From: Pacificimonas pallii
GTDB taxonomy: Bacteria > Pseudomonadota > Alphaproteobacteria > Sphingomonadales > Sphingomonadaceae
DNA length: 64,000 nt
Assembly (NCBI RefSeq): GCF_019204005.1
Contig: NZ_JAGSPA010000004.1
Location: forward strand, 62,001 to 126,000
Direction: 5' to 3'
How positions within the stretch are numbered: the first letter of the stretch is position 1; each line of letters begins with the position of its first letter. Under the pieces are notes generated by a model. The model did not search any database and was not told where the DNA came from. It worked only from the letters and a program-made list of their open reading frames with translations. The position numbers and the translations under genes were made by a program. This document shows positions 6,516 through 58,616 of the stretch, in pieces.

Positions 6516-6543
6516 ATCATCCTTCGACTGCGCTCAGGATGAT
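6516..6543. repeat. Palindromic intergenic repeat (ATCATCCT...AGGATGAT)
   Basis: Perfect 8-base arms ATCATCCT (6516-6523) and AGGATGAT (6536-6543) surround TCGACTGCGCTC. It sits between two convergent genes, so it could act as a two-way terminator. Its inner part, CCTTCGACTGC plus GCTCAGGA, recurs in inverted orientation inside the IS630 transposase at 58032-58070, which suggests a dispersed repeat family. Confidence 0.7.
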
Positions 6544-56726: not shown

Positions 56727-56749
56727 GCAGGGACACTATACTTAATTCA
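56727..56749. repeat. Dispersed repeat GCAGGGACACTATACTTAATTC
   Basis: The core GCAGGGACACTATACT-AATTCA recurs at 57576-57597, with one difference (T to C). Similar GGGACACTATACT strings are found by REP-associated tyrosine transposases in many bacteria, as I recall; no such transposase gene is visible here. It marks the break of the flanking gene. Confidence 0.6.
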
Positions 56750-57553: not shown

Positions 57554-57597
57554 GGATTGCAGGGACACTAGGATTGCAGGGACACTATACTCAATTC
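57554..57597. repeat. Tandem GGATTGCAGGGACACTA with partial repeat tail
   Basis: GGATTGCAGGGACACTA appears at 57554-57570 and again at 57571-57587, followed by TACTCAATTCA. The second copy and tail match the repeat at 56727-56749. The pair lies between the lipoprotein gene and the IS630 left end and looks like a slipped duplication of a repeat end. Confidence 0.65.
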
Positions 57598-57773
57598 AGA
57601 GTCGGAAATGCTGACTGCGCATGATATGCACGATCCCAGGACGGACGAACCACTTGTCTGGTACGGGGGTTCTGGCACCTAAAGCGGGATGATTTTGTTT
57701 TGAATCGATTGGGGATTCCCAAAGCTGCATTTTGCTGATTCATTTTGTGCAGGCACAGGATGGAGGGTGAGCA

Positions 57774-58400
57774 GTGGGCAAGGCCCTTTCGATGGACCTT
57801 CGGGAGCGGGCGATGGCGCGGCTTGCGGCGGGGGAGAGCGTAGGTCGGGTGGCGTCGGCACTGGATGTGGCACCGTCCAGCGTAGTGAAGTGGTCTCAGC
57901 GGTTACGTACGACCGGGAGCTGCGCGCCGGCTGGCACGGGCGGGCATCCACCGCGCAAGATCGTCGGCGCGCACGAGGCGTGGCTGCGGGACCGGATCGA
58001 CGCGCCCTTCGTTCTCGACGGCCCGGTCAATCCTGTCCTGAGCGACTGCCGCAGGCAGGCAGTCGAAGGGGGCGAGGCTTTCCGGGCCTATGTCGAGCAG
58101 GTGCTCGTCCCGGCCTTGCGGCCAGACGACGTGGTGGTGATGGACAAGCTCGGCAGTCATAAAGGCCATGCCGTCCGGGCCGCGATCCGAAAGGCCGGAG
58201 CGAACCTCCTGTTCCTCCCGCCCTACAGCCCGGACCTGAACCCCATCGAACAGGTCTTCGCCAAACTCAAGCATATGCTCCGCGACGCCTCCGAACGGAC
58301 GATGGAGGCAAGTTGGCGCAGAATCGGAACCCTGCTGGACCGCTTAACTGAACAGGAATGCGCCAACTACCTCGTCAACGCCGGATACGCTTCAAGCTAA
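57774..58400 (+). pseudogene. IS630 transposase, deleted and interrupted in frame
   Basis: 208 codons stay open, yet the protein is defective. Residues 1-75 are the helix-turn-helix region ([24 protein letters not shown]). The sequence then jumps at DRI to [11 protein letters not shown], missing roughly 130 residues including the first catalytic Asp. Residues 87-99 ([13 protein letters not shown]) are a 39-base palindromic insertion. The second Asp (Asp124, in [10 protein letters not shown], where the usual Asn is Lys) and Glu159 ([12 protein letters not shown]) remain. Inactive on its own. Confidence 0.85.
58032..58070. repeat. 39-base palindromic element inserted in frame in the transposase
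   Basis: Arms CGACTGCC (58043-58050) and GGCAGTCG (58058-58065) with a 7-base loop, flanked by TCCTGAG and AAGG. The outer strings TCCTGAGCG and AGTCGAAGG match the intergenic palindrome at 6516-6543 read on the other strand. Removing these 39 bases restores the expected transposase sequence GPVN-GEAF. Confidence 0.65.
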
Positions 58401-58412
58401 GGTCATCACGCG

Positions 58413-58616
58413 CTAGCACTTCGTTTCGAACTCTCCCGCCATGTTGAGTTCCGCGAAGTCGGCGAGACTGGGTGCGCCCTCGCGTTCTTGCCGGTTTTCT
58501 TTGTGCGCTGTCAGCGCTGATTTTTCACGCAGGCGCTCCCACCGGATTTTCGGAGGTGTAAACGCCTGACCGTGATGATTGGCGTAACCCCAATCATGCG
58601 CAGGCCAGTGCGGACA
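58413..58616 (-). pseudogene. Unidentified reading frame ending at the IS630 boundary
   Basis: An open stretch of 67 codons (HDWGYANHHGQAFTPPK...LADFAELNMAGEFETKC) with no start codon near its 5' stop. It ends with a TAG whose TA is the IS630 target duplication. The charged, helix-like composition looks protein-coding, but no family is recognised; possibly the tail of a lost mobile-element gene. Confidence 0.3.

Follow-up and report, generated by a model that had tools for sequence, protein, structure and literature searches.

The window analysed here is a 64,000-nucleotide stretch of the Pacificimonas pallii genome, and it contains a 39-bp palindromic element lying within what is left of an IS630 transposase gene, as well as a shorter intergenic palindrome that matches the ends of this element. 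The features are as follows:

6516-6543, + strand: short intergenic palindrome with core TCCTTCGACTGCGCTCAGGA at 6520-6539 (14 exact core copies in the genome)
57679-58427, + strand: IS630 remnant, bounded approximately by where its DNA resembles the IS630 of locus L051
57774-58400, + strand: 208-aa ORF in which a deletion of ~353 bp has joined the two IS630 transposase parts, HTH (orfA) and DDE (orfB)
58029-58031, + strand: AAT, the Asn codon directly 5' of the insertion, compared with the codon in relatives
58032-58070, + strand: 39-bp palindromic element, CCTGTCCTGAGC...GTCGAAGGG, coding for 13 residues
58043-58065, + strand: hairpin of an 8-bp stem and a 7-nt loop, folded from the element strand

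The 208-aa ORF matched the Pfam families DDE_3 and HTH_38. The IS630 copies in L051 and L058 encode their transposase in two frames (the HTH part, then the DDE part in another frame). In the window ORF a deletion has joined these two frames, running from one to the other of two similar stretches (CGGATCAAGACGCC and CGGATCGACGCGCC in L051), which are spaced 353 bases apart in L051 and L053 and 389 in L052. The segment deleted from the window IS630 includes the FIDETW stretch, which we take to hold the first catalytic Asp of the transposase, and the ORF had a single match in its own genome, namely itself. Judged by its sequence, the host ORF is a dead IS630 deletion remnant. An initial sequence-only reading had described the recipient as a transposase gene, which is correct as to IS630 sequence, but the gene is not intact: part of its interior is missing, and what is left joins two frames. 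With a dead IS remnant as recipient, no demonstrated meaning attaches to the kept frame of the window copy. Translational bypassing over the 39 bases was considered and dropped, as the take-off and landing codons do not match and the recipient is dead. Other repeats occur nearby: GCAGGGACACTATACTTAATTCA is present at window position 56730, with shorter and near copies at 57562 and 57579 adjoining the IS630 remnant, and CAGGGACACTATA adjoins the single Y1_Tnp match of the genome (L063:1170). These repeats may be the signature of another small mobile unit.

The element comprises 13 whole codons with both ends at codon boundaries, and it splits GPVN^GEAF of IS630 orfB (GPVN^GxxF) after the Asn codon and before the Gly codon. 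Its hairpin, at -9.3 kcal/mol (z -2.0), has the stem CGACTGCC/GGCAGTCG and a loop of 7 nt; since 5 of 200 shuffles folded as well, the fold taken alone is only modestly unusual. Among 42 aligned IS630 relative loci, 35 span the insertion site, and in 33 of these exactly 13 residues are absent from the protein alignment (L085 and L093 are ambiguous alignments), while the same 39 bases were seen in none of the 35. The in-frame interruption and the hairpin, both described from the sequence alone, are confirmed, and empty-site transposase copies, which that reading had proposed to look for, exist. Asn precedes the site in 31 of 37 counted alignments, and where the codon was readable it is AAC in 26 of 34 relatives and AAT in 5 of 34. 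As the conserved Asn of relatives is mostly encoded by AAC, the T of the AAT before the window element may derive from the target or may have arrived with the element.

We searched the genome (3.02 Mb in 11 contigs) for related sequences. The ends of the element, CTTCGACTG...CGCTCAGGA, match the other strand of the intergenic palindrome at 6516-6543, in agreement with the sequence-only reading. This palindrome has the stem ATCATCCT/AGGATGAT (z -2.3, with 7 of 200 shuffles as good), and its core 20-mer is present in 14 exact copies genome-wide, compared with none for the reversed control. Within the window, allowing up to 3 mismatches, the core matched only its own place (0.01 matches expected). 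A looser short-palindrome pattern returned 43 sites in the genome versus 1 for the reversed control, an inverted GTCGA(A/G)GG partner lies within 80 bases upstream at 9 of the 21 distinct short sites read, and L011 and L022 carry whole inverted pairs. It is thus the shorter form that is repeated in this genome, the 39-bp form being single-copy: the expectation of further copies holds for the short kin (the 14 exact 20-mers) but not for a second 39-mer.

Beyond this genome, the pattern CCTGTCCTGAGC-N5-30-GTCGAAGGG was found in 39 of 298 genomes of the family (presumably Sphingomonadaceae), with no reversed-control hit among the matches listed. The identical 39-mer was found once in each of 5 genomes, which belong to 3 genera; its flanks are unrelated in three of them, and in the other two (G171 and G286) it lies beside related repeats. 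The suggestion of a mobile small repeat in this lineage is partly supported, by dispersal across the 39 genomes with the wider pattern and by clean empty sites (below), although in this genome only the short form is repeated. Genome G286 holds 25 copies, the most of any genome searched, and would be a good place to seek a mobiliser; the copies read there are mostly in one common composite arrangement with a second repeat. In G209, two 36-bp copies lie 189 bases apart in near-identical flanks (L126, C1:1509626 and 1509815), as if a larger unit had been duplicated. The exact 39-mer had no match in IMG/VR, where the wider pattern found 17 stretches, and three plasmid records matched a 50-base query. 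Rfam searches of six loci gave three matches, which all scored below the gathering cutoff and lay outside the element coordinates. A literature search by titles and abstract openings, with supplements and most subscription papers outside its scope, found no account of the repeat family, which is no proof that the family is undescribed.

For comparison of junctions we assembled 94 sites with distinct flanks from family genomes and IMG/VR contigs (33 to 48 bp, with element ends fixed by the search pattern). The set includes part of the G286 copies, and copies with identical flanks were merged; 8 pairs with near-identical flanks remain, and the 94 sites are not all independent. The base directly before the element (-1) is G at 86 of the 94 sites (T at 3, A at 3, C at 2) and the preceding triplet is AAG at 56, whereas the right flank shows much lower bias. 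A related repeat beside the element was flagged at 41 sites; at the remaining 53, AAG precedes the element 23 times and G occupies -1 at 47, so that the left-flank bias arises partly from nesting beside related repeats. At 4 of these 53 sites, perfect 7-bp arms were found within 6 bases on both sides (about 0.2 expected by chance, from a hand estimate), and because such arms flank both sides, these 4 elements sit inside the loop of another palindrome. The arrangement at L184 is CGTCATCCCGGCGAAG-element-GCCGGGATGACG.

Empty sites could be read as DNA at two loci and as protein for IS630. In G293, a tetrapyrrole methylase gene carries a 36-bp copy after GTGCAAG, with PF00590 spanning the site, whereas GCAAGGG is uninterrupted in each of its 9 congeners. 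In G296, an M28 peptidase gene carries a 36-bp copy on the other strand, with PF04389 spanning the site; the congener locus L246 has GAGGAGGGCGAGGACC uninterrupted where G296 has 36 bp more, and the insert is absent from all 15 relatives that could be parsed (10 of 25 relatives were unparsed and left out). None of the three loci (methylase, M28 and IS630) shows target duplication beyond one possible base. The methylase and M28 junctions are ambiguous by one base because the preceding base and the last base of the element are both G, making a one-base target duplication possible at these sites; the window junction has no such ambiguity. The G at -1 may itself belong to the element rather than to the target.

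Copies within genes, which the sequence-only reading had proposed to list, were found in relatives, in frame and also in apparently intact genes. A trigger factor gene carries an in-frame copy in its tail past the domains, and a radical-SAM/UPF0004 gene (L141) carries one as part of a composite insert lying between its two domains. In that insert the palindrome lies inside an apparent CGTC-type repeat, which encodes ...EIPAFAGMTE. An IS481-like gene (rve_3, rve_2) has an in-frame copy and looks shortened, since plasmid relatives are longer over the same span despite the 39 extra bases of the copy. A transposase gene of pSWIT02 from Rhizorhabdus wittichii RW1 has an in-frame copy of the palindrome near its end, and two copies of the gene are identical over 974 bases. 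This gene (L127 and L148 in G219, L273 in pSWIT02) is annotated as a Tn3-family transposase and is followed by an IstB gene. The exact 39-mer lies in an IS30-like gene of G253 that is broken elsewhere (a label from one annotated plasmid match, H35, and our reading), and 46-47 bp forms lie at three uvrA-like 3' ends (L114, L121 and L134, labelled from translations), where a stop codon falls within the element. After the element, each of these three loci has another C-terminal coding segment, similar to the first but read in a different frame; L130 looks related to them. All 10 sense-strand genic copies recognised are in the phase that encodes PVLS, a count that leaves out L115, L158 and L192. 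Our coding test was crude: it flagged 9 of the sites supplied and missed the window, IS30-like and uvrA-like copies, so that genic counts are lower bounds. The flagged sites include L115, read in a different phase after a shift, and two copies in the opposite orientation, L158 and L192. In the methylase, the twelve extra residues within the domain would represent a natural case of a protein tolerating a mobile insert, and the twelve residues in the M28 domain, placed between two conserved motifs whose roles we presume from M28 peptidases, may be a second such case.

Three of the 94 sites are of the AAT type: the window (IS630), G253 (IS30-like) and G296 (IS481-like). All three have the identical 39-mer in the same phase, preceded by AAT and followed by GG at an Asn-Gly codon pair, and all three recipients are decayed transposase genes, from three IS families. 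Of the remaining exact 39-mers, one follows AAG (G171) and one GGG (G286). Conceivably, a sub-lineage defined by the exact 39-mer aims at AAT^GG of DDE transposase genes and thereby parasitises or silences insertion sequences on a tiny scale; drawn from three cases, this appears very unlikely. Asn-Gly is common in such transposase genes (TDNG, FDNG), so that a plain preference for AAT^GG could explain the three cases. Among 396 genomes of the order, a sample that leaves out G253 and G296, the only AAT-type copy was that of the window's own genome. No new AAT copy was found in the genera around G253 (7 genomes) or G296 (26 genomes), where a 39-bp pattern with free inner bases gave 5 sites and 1 site, respectively; being fixed at 39 bp, this pattern misses AAT copies of other lengths.

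The 39 bases are probably a non-autonomous, REP-like palindrome of Sphingomonadaceae that inserts as a unit 3' of a short target through a trans-acting single-strand recombinase, an account we favour while holding it with some reserve. The element is dispersed, its junctions are exact at three loci, its left flank is biased, and in-frame copies occur in apparently intact genes. On this account, the element would enter whole, duplicating at most one base of a short target (mostly AA then G, but AAT in the window), and would frequently settle next to other palindromes or inside their loops. The window copy would have gone in after the Asn codon and before the Gly codon of an IS630 orfB of which a deletion remnant is left today, and the hairpin of the element would be acted on by an enzyme of the HUH/Y1 class, IS200/IS605 or RAYT-like.

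A rather less probable, though credible, account is that such palindromes spread without any transposase, by strand switching or hairpin templating during replication and by recombination between genomes. The many sites beside related palindromes (41 of 94), the 4 of the other 53 in palindrome loops, the variable total length (33 to 48 bp, with ends set by the search pattern) and the lack of linkage to a mobiliser (one Y1_Tnp locus, in this genome) are all in keeping with it; however, isolated, exact insertions of 36-39 bp with clean empty sites would require a distant template each time. That selection keeps the element as a protein module, for a useful peptide (PVLS...VEG) that it encodes, is very unlikely. 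The uniform phase of the ten recognised copies, maintained though another phase is open, is what this would predict, but the phase may simply follow from a target located at codon ends, three copies lie outside that count, two of the recipients (IS630 and IS30-like) are broken and a third (IS481-like) is shortened, and the three uvrA-like copies have a stop inside the element. The z of only -2.0 for the fold, and the fact that a 39-bp length keeps the frame one time in three, would also suit a chance in-frame quasi-palindrome with no mobile history, yet the identical 39-mer recurs in other genera with unrelated flanks and the reversed control had no match, leaving chance scarcely credible.

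To our knowledge, the mobility of very short palindromes, the enzyme involved and the frequency with which working proteins gain peptides from them are still open questions outside Rickettsia and RAYT-linked REPs. With exact junctions, congener empty sites and a readable left-flank bias, the question of the mobiliser becomes testable in free-living relatives.

The proposed insertion mode would correspond to that of a passive element of the IS200/IS605 type, which inserts 3' of a short target with no larger duplication; here, there is at most one possible duplicated base at three loci, and the G at -1 is possibly the element's own. In the accessible parts of the sources, Rickettsia palindromic elements (RPEs) are described as small palindromes found inserted in frame within unrelated ORFs, which stay readable (PMC10969869, PMC3733652), with a length of ~150 bp (PMC10969869), and RPE-4 and RPE-6 are equated with CGTC repeat families (PMC3733652). 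In-frame entry into unrelated, readable ORFs is the likeness to the present element, a comparison of behaviour and not of sequence, whereas the 39-mer is far shorter and breaks the stem, loop and tail rules of the CGTC families to which RPE-4 and RPE-6 belong. The resemblance to RPEs noted by the sequence-only reading thus stands for dispersal, precise in-frame entry and copies in genes of relatives, but it is a likeness at the level of behaviour, for a single-copy 39-mer in a dead recipient.

CGTC-tagged REPs are the subject of a 2013 paper by Di Nocera, De Gregorio and Rocco (PMC3733652). As far as the accessible text describes them, they have an 8-9 bp stem almost invariably starting with complementary AT, a loop of 4 or 5 bases (others in three named species), a tail that is mostly CCA and a terminal motif of CGTC, or TGTC or CCTC, and they occur mainly in Alphaproteobacteria, often as inverted pairs, with intragenic copies in species including E. 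litoralis and S. alaskensis (PMC3733652). The present element is likewise a short palindrome of Alphaproteobacteria with inverted pairs and intragenic copies. TGTC is present at 58034-58037, though two bases inside the element end rather than at its terminus. The 39-mer stem CGACTGCC/GGCAGTCG has no AT start, its loop is 7 nt, and it ends in GAAGGG rather than CCA. At L184, the element lies in the loop (GAAG) of another palindrome, one that conforms to the CGTC-1 rules. GTAG REPs, in the parts of the source available, have a GTAG or GTGG head, RAYT genes are flanked by REPs as a rule, and the RAYT enzymes, related to IS200/IS605, make no larger target duplications (PMC2817692). Dispersed short palindromes and the lack of a larger target duplication are common to both, and no GTAG or GTGG head is present in 58032-58070. 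A RAYT link was rejected, because the element does not flank the single Y1_Tnp match of this genome, whose 3.3-kb locus contains no CTCAGG, CCTGAG or TCGAAG. We therefore file the element as a member of neither the CGTC nor the GTAG REPs; by analogy, it would work in the manner of REPs and RPEs.
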